Source: Achromobacter ruhlandii (GTDB taxonomy: Bacteria; Pseudomonadota; Gammaproteobacteria; Burkholderiales; Burkholderiaceae_B). From it: DNA of 64,000 bases. The DNA is taken from NCBI RefSeq assembly GCF_902859695.1, contig NZ_CADIJL010000001.1:186001-250000 (forward strand). Direction: 5' to 3'. Shown here one piece after another: positions 4,274 through 61,833 of this stretch (position 1 is its first letter; each line of letters opens with the position of its first letter). The translations under genes and the position numbers were made by a program. The notes beneath the pieces are model-generated. The model saw nothing but the letters and a program-made list of their open reading frames with translations. It had not been told where the DNA came from and searched no databases.

Positions 4274-7437
<3,164 letters not shown>

Positions 7438-51871: not shown

Positions 51872-52323
51872 TGGCCGCCGACTCACTGCACGTTGCCGTG
51901 CATCTTGTCGTGCCATCGGGCGTGCCGATCCCGTGGCTTTCCTCATGTCGTCGCGCGTGCCGTGCGAGCGCCGATCCTACGTATCGGGCGCCGCACTTCG
52001 CGCTGCCTTCCCATGTGCAGGCGTCTTGCCTCGAATGCGCCCGGCCTTTGGCCGTCGCTGCGTTCGCCGGCGCGCTGGCTGCTCGCGCAGCAACGCCGCC
52101 GGGCCGCCGCTGCCCGGAGCGTCAGCGAGGGGCAAAGGCGGAAGGCAAGACAAAAGTACGCGGCACCGGGCCGCGTCGAAAGCCAGTCTGCACGTGGGGT
52201 TGGCACGGCACGGAGCGGCTTCGCCGCCGTGCCGCGTGTGGTGCGAGGCCCACGCCAAGACAGGGCGGCCCGCGTGCTTCGCACGCCGGGGCACGCCCCA
52301 GCTTTCATGGAACGCAGCCATGA
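51868..52323 (+). other. Coupled open frame / candidate oriT region between traF and the relaxase
   Basis: A 151-codon frame begins MMAADSLHVAVHLVVPSG with its ATG overlapping the traF stop (ATGA). It ends in a TGA overlapping the relaxase ATG (ATGA). The geometry suggests a gene, but the Arg/Cys/Pro-rich sequence has no known domain. The same DNA holds strong hairpins: 52206-52219/52223-52234, GCGTGC-TTC-GCACGC (52272-52286) and GGGG-CACG-CCCC (52288-52299). Immediately before a relaxase this is also where oriT is expected. Both readings are open. Confidence 0.45.
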
Positions 52324-54302
52324 GCGACCGCCGCGATGACGATTTCCGCGTGCGCCCCAGCGCCCCGAAGAACCGGGGCAAGGGACAGGGGCAGAGCTTC
52401 GTTTCCAAGGTGCTCAAGCAGACCGGCAAGGCCAGCGGCGGGAAGTCCTCGGTGCGCCGTCCTGGCGCGACGGGTGGCACCGGCCAGCGGCCCGGCTCGC
52501 GCCTGGGGCGCGGCCATACGGCGGCGCGCTTCGCGGACGCGAAGCTGACGCCCATGTCCCGGCGCGTGACCATCAAGACGCTGCTGGTGAATCACCAGCG
52601 GGCCAGCCCGCAGTCGCTCGCCAAGCACCTGCGCTACATCGAGCGCGACGGTGTGGGACGCGACGGTGAACCGGGTCAAGCCTACGGAGCGCAGACAGAC
52701 GTGGCCGACCTCGACGCCTTCAAGGAACGCTGCGCCGACGACCGGCACCATTTCCGCTTCATCCTCTCGCCCGAGGATGGCGCGGAGCTGGAAGACCTGC
52801 GCACCTACACGAGGCACCTCATGGGCCGCATGGAGGCCGACCTGGGCACGGGCCTCGATTGGGTGGCCGTGAACCACTTGAACACCGACAACCCGCACAC
52901 GCACATCGTCGTGCGCGGGCGCGACGACACCGGCAAAGACCTCATCATCGCGGGCGACTACATCGCCGACGGCTTCCGCCACCGCGCCGCCGAACTGGCG
53001 ACCGAGTGGCTGGGGCCGCGCACTGAGCTGGAGATCCAGCAGACCTTGCAGCGCGAGGTGGAGCAAGAGCGGTGGACGAGTCTGGATCGCACCTTGAAGC
53101 GCGAGGCCGGCGACGATGGCCTGGTGCATGTCGAACGGCTCAACGAACCTCGCTTGCAGCGCCAACGCCTGTTGCTGATCGGCCGCCTGCAACGCTTGCA
53201 GCGCCTGGGCCTGGCCGACGAGACGCAGCCCGGCTCCTGGGCCATCCATGCCGATGCCGAGAAGACCTTGCGCGCCTTGGGCGAGCGCGGCGACATTATC
53301 CGCACCATGCAGCGGGCCATGAGCGGCCAGCCGCGCGAGCTGGCGGTGTTCGAGCCGGGCGAGGATGGCCGCACCATCGTCGGCCGCGTGGCCGCGAAGG
53401 GGCTGGCCGACGAACTGCACGACCGGGGCTATCTGGTCATCGACGGCGTGGACGGCAAGGCCCACTACGTCGCGCTCAACGCCCGCGACGAGTTGGCGAA
53501 CTATCCGACCGGGGCCGTGGTGGAGGTGAAGGGATCGGCCGACGTGCGCGCGGCCGACAGGAACATTGCCGCGCTGGCGAGCGATGGCCTGTACCGCACC
53601 GACCACCACCTGGCCGTGACACAGGGCCAGGCCGTCCCCGGACGCGATCCGCAGGAAGTTGTGGCGGCCCATGTCCGCAGGCTGGAAGCCCTACGCCGGG
53701 CGGGCATCGTGGAGCGCGTAGCCGAGGGGCTATGGAAGGTGCCGGGCGACCTGCCCGAGCAGGGCCGCCGCTACGACGCGCAGCGCCTGGGCGGCGTGGC
53801 CGTGGAGCTGAAATCGCACCTGCCCATCGAGCGGCAGGCGCGCGTGATCGGGGCCACCTGGCTTGACCAACAGTTGATCGGCGGCGGCACTGGCCTGGGC
53901 GACCTGGGGTTTGGCGGCGAGGCCAAGCAGGCGATGCAGCAGCGCGCCGACTTCCTCGCCGAACAAGGGCTGGCCGAGCGGCGCGGGCAGCGCGTGATCC
54001 TGGCGCGCAACCTGCTGGGCACGCTGCGCAACCGGGAACTGGCACAGGCCGCGAAGGCCATTGCTGCTGATACCGGCCTGGAGCATCGCCCGGTCGCCGA
54101 CGGGCAGCGCGTGGCCGGAATCTACCGGCGCTCCGTCATGCTCGCCAGCGGGCGCTACGCGATGCTCGATGACGGCATGGGATTCAGTCTGGTGCCGTGG
54201 AAGCCGGTGATCGAACAACGCTTGGGGCAGCAGCTTGCCGCCACGGTGCGCGGCGGTAGGGTGTCGTGGGAGATTGGGCGGCAGCGAGGATTCGGGCGAT
54301 AA
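52320..54302 (+). CDS. VirD2-like relaxase (DUF3363 type)
   Basis: 660 residues. N-terminal basic linker, then the relaxase domain at about 80-330: VTIKTLLVNHQRASPQSLAKHLRYIERDG (with candidate nicking Tyr106), RHHFRFILSPEDGAEL, and WVAVNHLNTDNPHTHIVVRG with the metal-binding His193 and His195. The C-terminal half is DUF3363. It should nick oriT and pilot the strand in conjugation (RlxS/TraI of Tn4371). It is followed by a convergent cargo gene 34 bases downstream. Confidence 0.93.
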   Translation: MSDRRDDDFRVRPSAPKNRGKGQGQSFVSKVLKQTGKASGGKSSVRRPGATGGTGQRPGSRLGRGHTAARFADAKLTPMSRRVTIKTLLVNHQRASPQSLAKHLRYIERDGVGRDGEPGQAYGAQTDVADLDAFKERCADDRHHFRFILSPEDGAELEDLRTYTRHLMGRMEADLGTGLDWVAVNHLNTDNPHTHIVVRGRDDTGKDLIIAGDYIADGFRHRAAELATEWLGPRTELEIQQTLQREVEQERWTSLDRTLKREAGDDGLVHVERLNEPRLQRQRLLLIGRLQRLQRLGLADETQPGSWAIHADAEKTLRALGERGDIIRTMQRAMSGQPRELAVFEPGEDGRTIVGRVAAKGLADELHDRGYLVIDGVDGKAHYVALNARDELANYPTGAVVEVKGSADVRAADRNIAALASDGLYRTDHHLAVTQGQAVPGRDPQEVVAAHVRRLEALRRAGIVERVAEGLWKVPGDLPEQGRRYDAQRLGGVAVELKSHLPIERQARVIGATWLDQQLIGGGTGLGDLGFGGEAKQAMQQRADFLAEQGLAERRGQRVILARNLLGTLRNRELAQAAKAIAADTGLEHRPVADGQRVAGIYRRSVMLASGRYAMLDDGMGFSLVPWKPVIEQRLGQQLAATVRGGRVSWEIGRQRGFGR

Positions 54303-54968: not shown

Positions 54969-55496
54969 GTCGGCCCATGTCGGTTCTATGTTGGTCGGTC
55001 TTCACACCGACTCCGTACATGACAGATCGGCGAGGGCCTGCGGAATCGCAGGATCTGATGGTTAGATGCCCTTTAGGCTGTTCCATCCATCTTCTCGTAG
55101 CTCGACATCCTCGCTAGATCGACATCTGCGAGGAAGTCACACTTTCATGTTGCCGACAATGAGCTACGAGGTTCACGCCCTCAAGACAGGGGGTGAGGCG
55201 TACTCGGCTATTCGTGGTCAACCTGGCGACTGCCGACAAGCACACGATGTGCGCTCAGGGCGGAGTCACAGGGAAGAAGTAGCCGCAAGGAAGTGGCCGA
55301 CCAACCAAGGCAGGCTGATGCTTCCAAGACATACGACCGCAATGGGACATGACCCATTCTAGTGCTGGCATTGAACATGAGTCGCAGAACTCGGACATCG
55401 CCGAGCGGTCGCTAAGAAAGAGACCTTAGAAGCTACCAAGCGTCTGGGCAATCATCGGGAACGGCAGCAACCTAGCAAGAGACGCGCTGCCGGGAC
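54969..55496. other. Unassigned stretch between the b561-like gene and the sulP promoter
   Basis: 528 bases. Open frames here are short and have no recognisable domain. Base composition is less GC-rich than the ICE backbone. Probably the b561-like promoter plus remnant or regulatory DNA at the cargo junction. No insertion sequence ends or target duplications were found by eye. Confidence 0.35.
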
Positions 55497-55525
55497 TTGC
55501 TGCGGTGCGCAAAAGCAGTTACAAT
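55497..55525 (+). promoter_or_regulatory. Probable promoter of the sulP leader
   Basis: TTGCTG at 55497-55502, a 17-base spacer, and TACAAT at 55520-55525 (five of six). The predicted transcript start is near 55532, giving a leader of about 230 bases before sulP. Confidence 0.65.
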
Positions 55526-55531
55526 CCCCGC

Positions 55532-55763
55532 ACTACCCATCAGCACACAGCCACCTATTTGGAGCTCTTACCAGTGTAACTATCAGTCTCGCAGCGAGCC
55601 GCTTTTCTAATTTCAAACTTCGCTCGCACGAGGCTGTACGTTCGACTGGCTGTGTTTTGCCAGCCCTTACTTTTTGGGCTGTTCTCTATTCCGGGTTCGG
55701 AAAGAGGCATTCGCGCCTAGATCCGTTCCAGCCTGCGGCCGAGCCTGCCCCCGGAATAGATCA
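55532..55763 (+). ncRNA. Structured 5' leader of sulP (riboswitch-like candidate)
   Basis: Stem P1: ACACAGCCA (55545-55553) with TGGCTGTGT (55647-55655), nine perfect pairs enclosing 93 bases. Inside, GCGAGC (55594-55599) pairs with GCTCGC (55622-55627), with local alternatives. CTGGC (55646-55650) can instead pair with GCCAG (55659-55663), opening P1; AGCCC (55662-55666) with GGGCT (55676-55680) is a third option. A perfect 11-bp stem, 55685-55695 with 55750-55760, covers the SD (GGAA, 55753-55756). It competes with the hairpin TTCCG/CGGAA (55689-55702). It looks like ligand- or temperature-dependent translation control. No known riboswitch class was recognised. Confidence 0.65.
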
Positions 55764-57242
55764 ATGATGAAATCCCTGCGCCAGGACTGGTTCTCCAACG
55801 TCCGGCACGACCTATTGGCTGGCGTCGTCGTAGCGCTCGCCCTCATCCCCGAAGCCATCGCCTTCTCGATCATCGCAGGCGTCGATCCCAAGGTCGGCCT
55901 GTATGCCTCATTCTGCATCGCCGCAGTGACTGCTTTCACAGGCGGCCGACCGGGCATGATTTCGGGGGCCACCGGCGCGATGGCGCTGCTGATGGTCACG
56001 CTGGTCAAAGAACACGGACTGCAATACCTGCTGGCCGCCACGGTGCTGACGGGTGTACTTCAGATCATCGCTGGCTGGCTAAAGCTCGGCGCGTTGATGC
56101 GCTTCGTCTCGCGCTCGGTCATCACCGGCTTCGTCAACGCGCTGGCGATCCTGATCTTCATGGCCCAGTTGCCCGAGCTGACGAACGTGACCTGGCACGT
56201 CTATGCCATGACGGCGGCGGGCCTGGCCATCATCTATCTCTTCCCCCGTATCACCAAGGCCGTGCCGTCCCCCCTGGTGGCCATCGTGGTGCTGACCGCC
56301 GTGGCGATCGTCCTTGGCCTCGACATCCGCACCGTGGGTGACATGGGCCAGTTGCCCGACAGCCTGCCGGTGTTCCTACTGCCCGATGTGCCGTTGAATC
56401 TGGAGACGCTCAAGATCATCTTCCCGGTGTCGGCCACCTTGGCCGTGGTGGGCCTGTTGGAATCCATGATGACGGCTTCCATCGTCGATGACCTGACCGA
56501 CACGAACAGCAACAAAAACCGTGAATGCGTAGGCCAAGGCGTGGCGAACATTGCCAGCGGTTTTCTCGGCGGCATGGCGGGTTGCGCCATGATCGGCCAG
56601 TCGGTCATCAACGTGAAGTCGGGTGGCCGGGGCCGGCTGTCCACGCTTGCAGCCGGTGTATTCCTGCTGCTGATGGTGGTGTTCATCGGAGATTGGGTGG
56701 CGCGCATTCCAATGGCTGCACTGGTTGCAGTGATGATCATGGTGGCCATCGGTACCTTTAGCTGGACATCGTTTCGCAACCTGCGCGCGCACCCCAAGAG
56801 TTCCAGCGTGGTGATGCTCGCGACTGTCGCCATGACGGTAGGTACCCATGACCTAGCCAAGGGCGTGCTGGTTGGTGTGCTGCTCTCGGGCTTTTTCTTC
56901 GCCCACAAGGTCGGCCGGATCTTCCATGCGTCCTCCCTCACGGAGGACGAAGGCCGCATACGCACCTACACCATCACCGGCCAGGTGTTCTTCGCATCGG
57001 CCGAACGCTTCGTCAATGCCTTCGACTACAAGGAAGTCATCGACAAAGTACGCATCGACGTCAGCCGCACCCACTTCTGGGACATCACCGCGGTGAGCGC
57101 CTTGGACAAGGTGGTCATCAAGTTCCGGCGCGAAGGCACGGAAGTGGAAGTGATCGGCCTGAACGAGGCCAGCACCACGATGGTGGACAAGTTCGGCGTC
57201 CACGACAAGGACGGCGCTGCCGACATGCTCGCGGGCCACTAA
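55764..57242 (+). CDS. SulP-family anion transporter
   Basis: 492 residues from ATG 55764 (a second ATG follows directly). SulP/SLC26 core: [56 protein letters not shown], and [33 protein letters not shown]. The C-terminal STAS domain is at about 385-492 ([12 protein letters not shown]). Transported anion may be sulfate, bicarbonate or another; not decidable here. Upstream in-frame codons lie in the structured leader. uspA starts 15 bases downstream. Confidence 0.92.
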
Positions 57243-57257
57243 CAAGGAGAACGGATC

Positions 57258-58121
57258 ATGAAAAACGAGAATAAGGTGCTGGCTTGCGTCGATCAATCAC
57301 GATACGCGGTTCATGTGGCCCACTGCGCGGCCTGGGCGGCCCACCGCATGGATGCACCGCTGGAGTTCCTACACGTGATCGACAGCCATCCCGAGCGGGG
57401 ACCGGGCGACGACCACAGCGGTGCCATCGGCGTCGACGCTCAGGAAAGCCTGTTGGCACAACTGTCAGCCGAGGACGAAGCACGCGCCAAGAGCGCGAGA
57501 GAGCAAGGCCGGCTGTTCCTGAACCAACTGCGCGAACGCGCATTGGCGGCGGGTGCGGCGCGCGTCGATGTGCGGCAGCGTCACGGCGCACTGGAAGACA
57601 CAGTGGTGGAACAGGCGCAAGGCGTGCGTCTGTTAGTGCTGGGCCGACGAGGTGCAGGGGCCGAAGTGGCGCGACGTGAGCTGGGCCATCATGTCGAGCA
57701 TCTGGTTCGCGCTCTGAATCGCCCCATCCTGACCGTGACCGAAGACTTCAAGGCGCCCCAACGGGTGATGATCGCCTTCGATGGCGGCACCGTCACACGG
57801 CGCGGCGTTGAAATGGTGGCGGGCAGCCCGCTGTTTCGCGGATTGCCCATCCTATTGCTGATGTCCGGCAAGCAAAGCAGAGACGCACCCAAATCGCTTG
57901 ATTGGGCCAGGGACACCCTGAAAGCAGCAGGCTTCGAGGTGACGGTTTCACTGGTTCCCGGAGATGCCGAAACAGTGATTGCAACGGCAGTGAAAGAACA
58001 GTCCATTGACATGCTCATCATGGGCGCATTTGGTCATTCACCACTGCGCGGCCTGCTATTTGGAAGCAAGACGACGGACTTATTGCGCTCGTCACGCATT
58101 CCAACGCTCTTACTGCGGTAG
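57258..58121 (+). CDS. uspA: Tandem universal stress protein
   Basis: 287 residues with two Usp domains. The first (VLACVDQSRYAVHVAHCAAWAAHRM) has a weak nucleotide loop (GRRGAGAEV...G). The second (RVMIAFDGGTVTRRGVEM) ends in an intact G-x2-G-x9-G-S ATP motif (GAFGHSPLRGLLFGS). A single clear ATP site suggests an asymmetric sensor. It is co-transcribed with sulP, an often seen pairing, so it may adjust transporter activity. SD AAGGAG upstream. Confidence 0.9.
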   Translation: MKNENKVLACVDQSRYAVHVAHCAAWAAHRMDAPLEFLHVIDSHPERGPGDDHSGAIGVDAQESLLAQLSAEDEARAKSAREQGRLFLNQLRERALAAGAARVDVRQRHGALEDTVVEQAQGVRLLVLGRRGAGAEVARRELGHHVEHLVRALNRPILTVTEDFKAPQRVMIAFDGGTVTRRGVEMVAGSPLFRGLPILLLMSGKQSRDAPKSLDWARDTLKAAGFEVTVSLVPGDAETVIATAVKEQSIDMLIMGAFGHSPLRGLLFGSKTTDLLRSSRIPTLLLR

Positions 58122-58364: not shown

Positions 58365-58373
58365 GAAGTTCTC

Positions 58374-59318
58374 ATGGAGTTGCGCCATCTACGCTATTTC
58401 TGGGCCGTAGCCGAAGAACTCCACTTCGGCCGCGCCGCGGAGAAGCTGCACATCGAGCAATCACCGTTGTCGCGTGCTATCAAAGAGTTGGAAGAAGAAC
58501 TGGGCGTTGTGCTGTTTGCTCGAACCACTCGCAGCACTCAACTCACCCGCGCCGGGAAACTGTTTCTGGAGCACGTGCGCCGCGTCTTCGCCGCCTTGGA
58601 ACAAGCACGGGACAGTGTGAGGGCAGCGGCCAATGGATTTCATGGACAGTTGCGCGTGGCGCTGTCCGACGGCATCACCCCGTCACGCCTATCTGCTTTG
58701 CTCGCCGTCTGCCGACAAGAAGAACCAGAGGTCGAAATCCGATTCTTCGAGGTGCCACTGTCACAACAGATCAAGGGACTACATGACGATCTGTACGACG
58801 TAGGATTCGCGCAGTCCAGGGAGGCAGGCGATGGCATCGTCGCTTTACCGGCTTGGAGCGATCCGCTTATGGTGGCGGTGCCGGCGAGGCATCCGCTATT
58901 GGCCCACAAACGCATCCCTCTGGATGAGTTGCTGCGCTACCCGCTTGTCTTGTGCGACCCGCAAGTGTGCGAAGGCCATGCCAAACACGTTGATCGAGTG
59001 CTGCGTCGGGCGGACATGGAGCCGCTAATTGCGGAGCGGGTCGCTTCCTGCGACCTGATGATGGCGCTCGTATCGGCAGGCTTCGCACTTGGCCTGGCGG
59101 GTGCAGCGCACATTGTCGCAAGCCGTGAACCGGGCGTGGTAGCGCGACCACTGGCGTCCCGTGTACCGCCGCTGACGACGTACCTGCTCCGCCCAGAGAA
59201 TTTCCCCTCCGATGTGCTGACACGCTTCATTAAACGTGTGCAGGCTATCGAATCACCGGAATCTCCCCGGCCCATCACGGGCCATACTCTTGACCTACCG
59301 GAGGTACCTACGCCGTGA
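58374..59318 (+). CDS. LysR-family regulator of the transfer region
   Basis: 314 residues from ATG 58374. N-terminal HTH (MELRHLRYFWAVAEELHFGRAAEKLHIEQSPLSRAIKELEEELG), then a LysR substrate domain (LRVALSDGITPSRLSALLAVCRQEEPEVEIRFFEV). A LysR gene in front of eexN and traG is part of the Tn4371-like backbone, so it likely controls transfer genes rather than the sulP cargo. The stop overlaps the eexN GTG (GTGA). Confidence 0.93.
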   Translation: MELRHLRYFWAVAEELHFGRAAEKLHIEQSPLSRAIKELEEELGVVLFARTTRSTQLTRAGKLFLEHVRRVFAALEQARDSVRAAANGFHGQLRVALSDGITPSRLSALLAVCRQEEPEVEIRFFEVPLSQQIKGLHDDLYDVGFAQSREAGDGIVALPAWSDPLMVAVPARHPLLAHKRIPLDELLRYPLVLCDPQVCEGHAKHVDRVLRRADMEPLIAERVASCDLMMALVSAGFALGLAGAAHIVASREPGVVARPLASRVPPLTTYLLRPENFPSDVLTRFIKRVQAIESPESPRPITGHTLDLPEVPTP

Positions 59319-59829: not shown

Positions 59830-61833
59830 ATGCAAGGGACGAACGTGCTATTCGGTCAGATCGCCGTGGTATTCGGCATCGTGATCGCCGGAGTGTGGGG
59901 CGCCACACAATGGACAGCAGCAGCCCTTGGCTATCAAGTACGCCTTGGCTCGCCTTGGTTCGATCTTCTTGGCACGCCGATCTATCACCCGTGGAAGCTG
60001 TTTGAGTGGTGGTTTTCTTACGGCGCCTATACCCCGGAAACCTTCGACACCGGCGGAGCCATCGCGGGCAGCAGTGGCATGGTCGCCGTGGCCGTCGCCA
60101 TTGCCATGTCGGTCTGGCGCTCGCGGCAGGCACGCCTGGTCACGACCTACGGGTCGGCCCGCTGGGCGAACGCGCAGGACATTCGCAAGGCGGGCCTCAC
60201 GCAGCCAGCGGGCGTGTTCCTCGGCCAGCACGACCGCCAGTACCTGCGCCATGAAGGGCCAGAGCACGTCCTGACCTTCGCGCCCACGCGCAGCGGCAAG
60301 GGTGTCGGCCTGGTGGTGCCCACCTTGTTGAGCTGGCCGGCTTCAGCGGTCATCCACGACATCAAGGGCGAGAACTGGCAGATCACCGCCGGCTGGCGCA
60401 GCCGTTTCAGCCATTGCCTGCTGTTCAACCCGACCGATGCGAAGTCGGCGGCCTACAACCCGCTGCTGGAGGTACGGCGCGGCGCGCATGAAGTGCGCGA
60501 CGTGCAGAACATCGCGGACATTCTGGTCGATCCCGAAGGCGCGCTGGAGAAGCGCAACCATTGGGAAAAGACCTCTCACGCGCTGCTGGTCGGGGCCATC
60601 CTGCATGTGCTCTACGCGAGCGAAGACAAGACGCTGCGCGGCGTCGCCAACTTCCTCAGTGACCCGGCCAGCCCCTTCGAGCTGACCTTGCACCGGATGA
60701 TGACCACGCCGCATCTCGGCGATGGCCCGCATCCCGTCGTCGCTTCGGCGGCGCGCGAAGTGCTCAACAAGTCGGACAACGAGCGTTCCGGCGTGTTGAG
60801 CACCGCCATGTCGTTCTTGGGCCTCTATCGTGATCCCACGGTGGCCGAAGTCACGTCGCGCTGCGACTGGCGCATCGCCGATCTCATCTCCGCCGAGCAC
60901 CCGGTGTCGCTGTACCTGGTGGTGCCGCCTTCGGACATCAGCCGCACAAAGCCGCTCATCCGCCTGATCCTCAACCAGATCGGCCGGCGCCTGACCGAAT
61001 CGCTGGACGGCTCGGACGGCATAGCGCGCAGGCACAAGCTGCTGCTGATGCTCGACGAGTTCCCGGCCTTGGGCCGGCTCGACTTCTTCGAGACGGCCTT
61101 GGCCTTCATGGCGGGCTACGGCATCCGCAGCTTCCTCATCGCGCAGTCGCTCAACCAGATCGACAAGGCGTATGGGCAGAACCACTCCATCCTCGACAAC
61201 TGCCATGTGCGCGTGACGTTCGCCACGAACGACGAACGCACAGCGAAGCGCATCTCCGAGACGCTGGGCACCGCGACCGAGCTGCGCGCCCAGCGCAACT
61301 ACGCAGGCCACCGGCTCGCGCCGTGGCTGGGCCACCTCATGGTGTCGCGTCAAGAGACGGCCCGCCCGCTGCTGACGCCGGGTGAAGTCATGCAGCTTCC
61401 GCCCGATGAGGCCGTGGTGATGGTGTCCAGCGTGGCCCCCATCAAGGCCACGAAGCTGCGCTACTACGCCGACACCAATTTCAAGCAGCGTGTCATGCCG
61501 CCGCCTGCGCTGGCGGACGGGCAGTACGCGGACGCGCCGCCTGCGCGCGCTGACGACTGGAGCGGCTTGGCGATCCCCGCCGTGCTGACTCCGCCTGCCG
61601 CCGGAGAAGCCGAGGGCTTCCCGGCCAGCACTGACGACGGCGGCCCGCGCCGTCAGCCAGAGCTTTCCGAAACCGTCGCCTACGACCCCGAGCTGGCCGC
61701 GCCCGCGGCCGACCTGGCGCTGCTCGATGACGACGACGACCTGCCGCTTCCCCTTCCTCGCCAGCTTGATCCGCCCATGCAGCGCGTGGCCCGGCTGGCG
61801 TCCCTCGACCCCAACGACGGAATCGAGCTATGA
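59830..61833 (+). CDS. traG: TraG/VirD4 coupling protein
   Basis: 667 residues. Two N-terminal membrane helices (residues 8-25 and about 78-95). Walker A APTRSGKG at 151-158, Walker B LLLMLDEFPALGRLDFFE, IAQSLNQIDKAYGQNHSILDNCHVRVTFATND motif typical of VirD4. Pro- and Asp-rich tail. It links the relaxosome to the mating-pair apparatus. Stop overlaps the next gene (ATGA). Start of the conserved traG-trb operon. Confidence 0.96.
   Translation: MQGTNVLFGQIAVVFGIVIAGVWGATQWTAAALGYQVRLGSPWFDLLGTPIYHPWKLFEWWFSYGAYTPETFDTGGAIAGSSGMVAVAVAIAMSVWRSRQARLVTTYGSARWANAQDIRKAGLTQPAGVFLGQHDRQYLRHEGPEHVLTFAPTRSGKGVGLVVPTLLSWPASAVIHDIKGENWQITAGWRSRFSHCLLFNPTDAKSAAYNPLLEVRRGAHEVRDVQNIADILVDPEGALEKRNHWEKTSHALLVGAILHVLYASEDKTLRGVANFLSDPASPFELTLHRMMTTPHLGDGPHPVVASAAREVLNKSDNERSGVLSTAMSFLGLYRDPTVAEVTSRCDWRIADLISAEHPVSLYLVVPPSDISRTKPLIRLILNQIGRRLTESLDGSDGIARRHKLLLMLDEFPALGRLDFFETALAFMAGYGIRSFLIAQSLNQIDKAYGQNHSILDNCHVRVTFATNDERTAKRISETLGTATELRAQRNYAGHRLAPWLGHLMVSRQETARPLLTPGEVMQLPPDEAVVMVSSVAPIKATKLRYYADTNFKQRVMPPPALADGQYADAPPARADDWSGLAIPAVLTPPAAGEAEGFPASTDDGGPRRQPELSETVAYDPELAAPAADLALLDDDDDLPLPLPRQLDPPMQRVARLASLDPNDGIEL

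Follow-up and report, generated by a model that had tools for sequence, protein, structure and literature searches.

Leader-peptide attenuators of the TnaC type place a mini-ORF upstream of an operon, within RNA that can adopt alternative folds. TnaC ends in a proline before its stop codon, and in the tna operon the ribosome at the stop of this upstream ORF (uORF) acts by masking an entry site for Rho or by steering a terminator. The leader of sulP described here shares with these systems the mini-ORF and possibly the alternative folds, and those of its relatives that carry a mini-ORF ending in Pro-Pro-stop (PP-stop) also share the proline before the stop. In contrast, the form found in the window, the stretch of 64,000 nucleotides of Achromobacter ruhlandii DNA analysed here, would encode no peptide beyond the initiator residue if its GTG is the start.

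Start-stop uORFs, in which the start codon is directly followed by the stop codon, have been treated in eukaryotes (PMC5972666, available text). According to the available text on Arabidopsis NIP5;1, boron stalls ribosomes at an AUGUAA (PMC11915504), which makes it the closest parallel in mode of action. As with sulP, the start-stop pair sits upstream of a transport gene, in its 5' leader, but the system involves the plant 80S ribosome, boron as the signal, and mRNA decay. The sulP leader differs in that it is bacterial, uses GTG, ATG or TTG, and carries a CCN codon before the pair and a fold hiding the Shine-Dalgarno (SD) sequence. In E. coli, a start-stop termination-reinitiation site, GUGUGA, has been reported for narQ (PMC9841429, available text). 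There, too, a bacterial start codon is immediately followed by a stop codon; however, the narQ pair overlaps the start of the gene itself, whereas the sulP pair lies 190 nt upstream in a structured leader and recurs across the gene family. This is the nearest bacterial case in the literature accessible to our search, which left most subscription papers outside and is no proof of novelty; a conserved, detached bacterial start-stop uORF used in regulation was not found there.

With regard to structured leaders, Streptomyces has the dauA motif before its STAS genes (PMC11109978, available text); similar to the sulP leader, this structured RNA covers the SD of a transporter-type gene with a STAS domain. 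Compared by description only, it differs in phylum and in its three-stem junction, and no uORF is mentioned in the available text. The uORF candidates odc1, ilvB and fthC of the Breaker laboratory likewise combine a conserved uORF with a structured leader, but belong to other genes and peptides (PMC8632094, PMC11109978, available text). SulP does not occur in the main texts of these two papers, and none of the literature matches listed names a leader of this kind for SulP together with a leader peptide or a universal stress protein. Regulatory uORFs are known in bacteria, and the sulP leader would add a conserved, detached start-stop form.

Genomic setting and conservation of the sulP leader

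The genes that define the setting are:

51933-54302: relaxase gene (Pfam DUF3363, Relaxase)
55764..57242, + strand: sulP, SulP anion permease with STAS domain (Pfam PF00916, PF01740)
57258..58121, + strand: uspA, universal stress protein (Pfam PF00582)
59830-61833: conjugative coupling-protein gene (Pfam T4SS-DNA_transf)

Since the sulP-uspA pair is flanked by the relaxase and coupling-protein genes, it looks like cargo of a conjugative element, which may be a Tn4371-like ICE. A gene for a LysR-type regulator (58371-59315) is located downstream of uspA on the same strand. Translation of sulP starts at ATG 55764 or 55767, with GGAA at 55753-55756 as SD. In 12 of the 13 plasmid regions with a gene table, sulP is followed by a universal stress protein gene (the exception is L125; L033, L036 and L127, without a gene table, are left out of this count). 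SulP relatives are widespread plasmid cargo: 1800 of 72,556 plasmid records carry one (E 1e-60 or better), led by Klebsiella, Enterobacter and Acinetobacter, and leaders were examined in few of these 1800. The segment 55480-55900 is 100% identical in the genomes G011 and G179, and SulP is 100% identical on a Verticiella contig, which is probably one record with the G011 contig. Gene neighbours were considered as a clue to a ligand: of 47 proteins listed for 12 loci, 10 from 9 loci were selected, and these showed no recurring family. In a Comamonas plasmid (L032), genes for a permease, a thioredoxin, a rhodanese, an OsmC protein and a cation diffusion facilitator precede sulP-uspA, which perhaps hints at sulfur stress. 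In plasmid pAKD1 (L118), IS6100 lies immediately 5' of sulP and the SulP match starts at residue 28; therefore, leader and N-terminus have been replaced in this copy.

The sequence preceding sulP is almost certainly a conserved regulatory leader. It is kept before sulP on plasmids, mobile elements and chromosomes. Using blastn, it was found to be approximately 69% identical in 10 plasmid records over 30-38% of the 801-base query, and it is common to several of 80 loci retrieved via SulP. A covariance model (R1) of the 5' structural domain, domain I, was built from an alignment of 14 relatives with the window left out. It matched the window at 55558-55651 with 45.7 bits (E 5.9e-12). On 75 sources, the model yielded 11 matches at E 5e-8 or better, seven of which were the sequences used to build it; those outside the building set were the window, L005 and L040 (41.3 bits, identical leaders), and L063 (34.1 bits). 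In whole genomes matches were rare: 6 of 268 genomes of the family at E 0.01; 7 of 399 of the order at E 0.05, the three strong ones being the window's own genome, G843 and G929; and, among the 67 genomes of the family that includes G843, 6, of which two were strong. One of the six family matches (L163, E 4.1e-5) is located away from any sulP, in a coding stretch or its start, presumably tpiA, and was taken as a chance match. No SulP was detected by tblastn at L166-L169.

The sequence-only reading had recognised no known RNA class in the leader, and this held: a scan with the Rfam 15 covariance models returned no match in the window at the gathering score and none up to E 10 in 55450-55800. 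The 4227 families scanned presumably include sul1, nhaA-I and DUF1646. Over nine related loci up to E 1, the three matches obtained were located in L043 at 5402-6386, beyond sulP, and none in the leader. A known class for the leader was rejected on the basis of these scans.

Folds of the leader RNA

The elements of the leader, all on the + strand, are:

55497..55525, +: likely promoter TTGCTG-17-TACAAT (similar TTGCTG-17-TANAAT in relatives)
55545..55655, +: domain I, closing stem ACACAGCCA 55545-55553 / TGGCTGTGT 55647-55655
55561..55564, +: SD-like GGAG, 9 nt 5' of the uORF start codon
55571..55579, +: start-stop uORF CCA-GTG-TAA (GTG 55574-55576, TAA 55577-55579) behind a conserved CCN
55585-55591/55629-55635 and 55594-55599/55622-55627, +: inner stems of domain I
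55661..55681, +: hairpin II, CAGCCC 55661-55666 / GGGCTG 55676-55681
55685..55695, +: SD-hiding stem, 5' arm
55689..55702, +: small competing (decoy) hairpin, TTCCG 55689-55693 / CGGAA 55698-55702
55750..55760, +: SD-hiding stem, 3' arm, with the sulP SD GGAA 55753-55756

The minimum free energy fold of 55497-55790 has -99.5 kcal/mol, compared to a mean of -86.23 (sd 4.95) for 200 shuffles (z -2.68); two shuffles were as good and 198 were bettered. This fold includes both perfect stems that had been described before, namely the 9-bp closing stem, whose arms are 93 nt apart, and the 11-bp stem over the SD, with 54 nt between its arms. The small competing hairpin is also present, and at least four of its five pairs are kept in eight of nine aligned leaders. 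The two alternative stems said to open the closing stem could not be matched to particular pairings; the alternatives found were the decoy hairpin and a possible antisequestor.

In nine leaders, 88.9% of the pairs of the SD-hiding stem are kept. Its covariation score of 0.149 was matched by 4 of 500 shuffles, while the same stem slid by -1 scored 0.157; two pairs are changed on both sides, a number reached by 76 of 500 shuffles. In domain I, 87.1% of the cells are paired, compared to 27.7-51.8% when the structure is slid; its covariation score was matched by 7 of 500 shuffles and its count of pairs changed on both sides by 95 of 500. On account of these counts, the folds are backed more by kept pairing than by many compensations. 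The closing stem forms with nine of nine pairs in L161, one of them changed on both sides (AT to TG), while a 7-bp stem in another register replaces it in L164, L033, L034, L043 and L035. Since the pairing registers differ between leaders, same-column covariation of the closing stem across all leaders was rejected.

A possible antisequestor, GCGTCTTGCTGGCC/GGCCGGGAAGACGC, occurs in six relatives (L032, L033, L034, L035, L039 and L164); the four of these leaders included in the alignment have 13 of its 14 pairs. It uses the strand that closes domain I and would exclude the SD-hiding stem. The antisequestor is strong in the leaders of these six and weak in the window. In truncated transcripts it folded in all six, with the ribosome present or absent, and partly in L043; it hardly formed in L005 and did not form in the window, L161 or L041 (11 of 13 leaders run). 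Its covariation is modest: 21 of 500 shuffles reached its score, and 137 of 500 its count of pairs with both sides changed.

A stem covering the SD is also what an RNA thermometer would show, in which heat would melt the 11-bp stem to expose the ribosome binding site. However, 11 perfect pairs are embedded here in a larger fold, the Rfam scans gave no match to a thermometer family, and the uORF would be left unexplained; we regard this explanation as extremely improbable.

Start-stop and Pro-Pro-stop uORFs

The GTG-TAA pair at 55574-55579 was absent from the sequence-only reading. The pattern was first seen in relatives, where many sulP genes are preceded by [A/G/T]TG-TAA and, separated from it by a spacer, a GGAG resembling an SD; other sulP genes have short upstream ORFs ending in Pro-Pro-stop. 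We then counted all 64 codons XXX in CCN-XXX-stop between -300 and -80 in 139 sulP upstream regions, from which near-copies had been removed, with expected counts taken from 200 dinucleotide shuffles. Among the start codons, ATG occurred 17 times (expected 0.79), GTG 13 times (0.89) and TTG 11 times (1.11). The proline codons CCC, CCA, CCG and CCT occurred 16, 14, 11 and 8 times, 49 in all (expected 1.32-1.56 each). CTG was found once (0.97), and each of the remaining codons at most three times. Enrichment before the stop is thus confined to the four codons for proline and the three that mainly serve as starts in bacteria. As in the plant AUG-stop case, a start codon is directly followed by a stop codon in the leader, both in the window and in 41 of the 139 regions; 48 regions contain a PP-stop, one both (L096), and 51 neither. 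The antisense strand of these regions yielded 3 start-stop and 5 PP-stop hits, and ten other 220-nt windows at the same loci yielded 0-3 and 0-10, respectively, of 125-139.

In a fresh set of 54 regions (60 retrieved, 6 near-copies dropped), start-stop pairs were found in 11, PP-stops in 9, both in none and neither in 34; the antisense strand gave two of each form. Here ATG occurred 5 times (expected 0.4), GTG 4 (0.27), TTG 3 (0.5), CCT 4, CCC 3, CCG 2 and CTG 0; the start of sulP was set from the DNA match in 25 of the 60, where an indel error is possible, and from protein matches in 35. Among the start-stop rows, TAA was used in 33, TAG in 6 and TGA in 2. Start and stop are therefore conserved as codons, as in a regulatory uORF: only start and proline codons are enriched, and all three stops are used. 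A GGA is located up to 20 nt upstream in 20 of the 41 start-stop rows and is absent in the other 21, which speaks against efficient initiation in these. We conclude that a start-stop (or PP-stop) uORF is very likely the shared element of this leader.

A longer peptide ending in P-[V/M/L]-stop was rejected as the general case, as ATG, GTG and TTG are enriched and CTG is not, and 21 of 52 CCN-NTG-stop rows lack an in-frame upstream ATG, GTG or TTG within the 450 nt read. In addition, L018 has an in-frame stop codon immediately 5' of its CCT; thus, no canonical ORF other than the start-stop pair is available in these cases. In the window, an in-frame TTG (55559-55561) would allow a 6-codon ORF (TTG GAG CTC TTA CCA GTG TAA) instead of the start-stop pair; this TTG is absent in L032, L034, L039 and L164. 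The codon before NTG-stop is CCN at 41 of 60 places, though it is untranslated where no upstream start exists. On the ribosome it would occupy the E site, as would the first proline codon of the PP-stop form.

The PP-stop form occurs as PRGYFCSVTPP* and variants at 17 loci, 120-217 nt upstream of sulP (L019, L049, L050, L066, L067, L081, L090, L099, L101, L103, L104, L106, L108, L110, L112, L114 and L119); those with a name belong to betaproteobacteria. These loci were picked for this ending from 45 PP loci listed, a choice that inflates their identity but not the synonymous pattern. Nucleotide differences at codon positions 1, 2 and 3 amounted to 159, 190 and 922. Differing codon pairs were synonymous in 835 cases and other in 228, compared to 70/908 and 91/870 in the other frames, and mean identity dropped from 0.74 to 0.30 past the stop. 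Coding-type variation, as looked for in a regulatory uORF, is thus present in the PP-stop relatives; for the start-stop form it is inapplicable. Judged by this codon pattern, the PP-stop form is a peptide under selection, and PRGYFCSVTPP* is a candidate arrest peptide that can be tested as such. Further PP-stop forms are MRLTPP*, MRITPP*, MLVTPP* and MIWLPTPP*. A literature text search for RGYFCSVTPP, YFCSVTPP and CSVTPP, with most subscription papers outside its reach, gave no match. On a tree of 138 SulP proteins, start-stop and PP-stop require at least 12 changes over 87 rows (L096 counted as start-stop); this is a quick tree, in which 47 of the 135 inner branches have values below 80. The two form labels are nonetheless clustered on it (0 of 500 shuffles as low).

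These data also bear on a metabolite- or ion-binding riboswitch, in which domain I would be the aptamer and NTG-TAA an untranslated part of its conserved core. The alignment of 14 sequences shows strong conservation of the motif TGTAAGCC and of the P2 and P3 stems, an SD-hiding stem is a usual expression platform, and the strong model matches are few and, except for L163, all before sulP. However, start-stop pairs also occur in leaders missed by the domain I model (e.g. L044, L053 and L107), start codons and not CTG are enriched before the stop, PP-stop mini-ORFs take the place of the start-stop pair in relatives, and there is no Rfam match. We consider a riboswitch of this type unlikely; a ligand-binding RNA domain in addition to a ribosome sensor is possible.

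Proposed attenuation, its output and the promoter region

The previous interpretation of the leader stands in part. The structured leader hiding the sulP ribosome binding site, with no match in Rfam, is conserved; a riboswitch or thermometer as first choice is not retained, as the most widely kept element is a translation signal. With the start-stop pair or the PP-stop mini-ORF as the most widespread element of the family, the sensor is more likely to be the ribosome. With moderate confidence, we favour a ribosome-operated attenuator of sulP-uspA over a classical riboswitch or thermometer.

According to this model, transcription would start near 55532 and the RNA would fold into domain I, hairpin II and the terminal SD-hiding stem. 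A ribosome would initiate at the conserved GTG-TAA in domain I and have to terminate at once. Its dwell time, which would depend on how fast initiation, release or recycling proceeds, would decide whether domain I forms and, in turn, which fold is adopted downstream. Most likely, a slow ribosome would favour exposure of the SD or allow transcription to go on, in the manner of leader-peptide attenuators. The signal might be a condition under which termination slows down, be it a ligand linked to the transported anion or translation stress in general; the second option fits the partner gene uspA. In relatives, the PP-stop mini-ORF would stand in for the start-stop pair. Should sulP indeed be regulated by a ribosome that occupies no more than a start and a stop codon, this would represent minimal sensing by initiation and termination without a peptide.

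A more specific version, to which we assign only a small chance, takes the start-stop pair behind CCN as a sensor without nascent peptide, responding to the SulP substrate or to release-factor status in the manner of boron on AUGUAA; the PP-stop arrest peptide would read the same signal, and the two forms would interchange in evolution.

In equilibrium folding, blocking the uORF freed the SD in one of 13 leaders (L005) and not in the window. Opening of the SD by a ribosome on the uORF, as the simplest model would have it at equilibrium, was thus not reproduced in 12 of the 13. The attenuator model also has against it the 51 of 139 and 34 of 54 regions with neither form, the start-stop rows that lack a nearby GGA, and the in-frame TTG of the window. 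As the block frees the SD only in L005 and the antisequestor is found in six leaders, the step from ribosome to SD is one that we infer. This step may require co-transcriptional folding, or the output may be transcription.

In the latter case, the same uORF would act by a ribosome at its stop masking a Rho entry site or steering a terminator. The C/G ratio peaks just past the uORF stop, in a C-rich tract with values of 2.69 (start-stop) and 1.82 (PP-stop), compared to 1.11-1.36 in regions with neither form. Terminator-like hairpins were found in 11 of 41 start-stop and 11 of 47 PP-stop regions (approximately 2.8-fold over shuffle means of 3.9 each; maxima 9 and 6), and the window leader contains two overlapping terminator-like sites where 0.6 are expected. 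However, the site in the window has a stem of 5 bp and a mixed tail, no such hairpin is found in 30 of 41 start-stop and 36 of 47 PP-stop regions, and conservation of the SD-hiding stem argues for translation. Transcription as the output is a tentative alternative that we think less probable than not by a clear measure.

Termination-reinitiation, by which the start-stop pair would load ribosomes that travel on to sulP, has a precedent in the narQ site mentioned above (PMC9841429, available text). Here, however, a long stretch separates the uORF stop from the sulP ATG (median 194 nt in start-stop and 137 nt in PP-stop regions), with the SD-hiding stem in between, and this route appears very unlikely.

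Upstream of the proposed attenuator, the leader had been credited with a good promoter. A strict sigma-70 consensus scan of the leader gave no match; yet a similar TTGCTG-17-TANAAT recurs in relatives. With a consensus derived from the same loci that were scored, the promoter-like pattern reached at least 11 of 14 in 26 of 137 regions, compared to 0-6 of 125-139 in control windows. Some PP-type loci reach this score through a similar sequence at the uORF start instead. The -35 of the likely promoter lies within a sequence (55497-55513 in the window) resembling the palindrome TTGCTGCNNNGCAGCAA of relatives, possibly an operator. This palindrome also overlaps the -35 in L042, where it is perfect, and in L057, L074, L077 and others.
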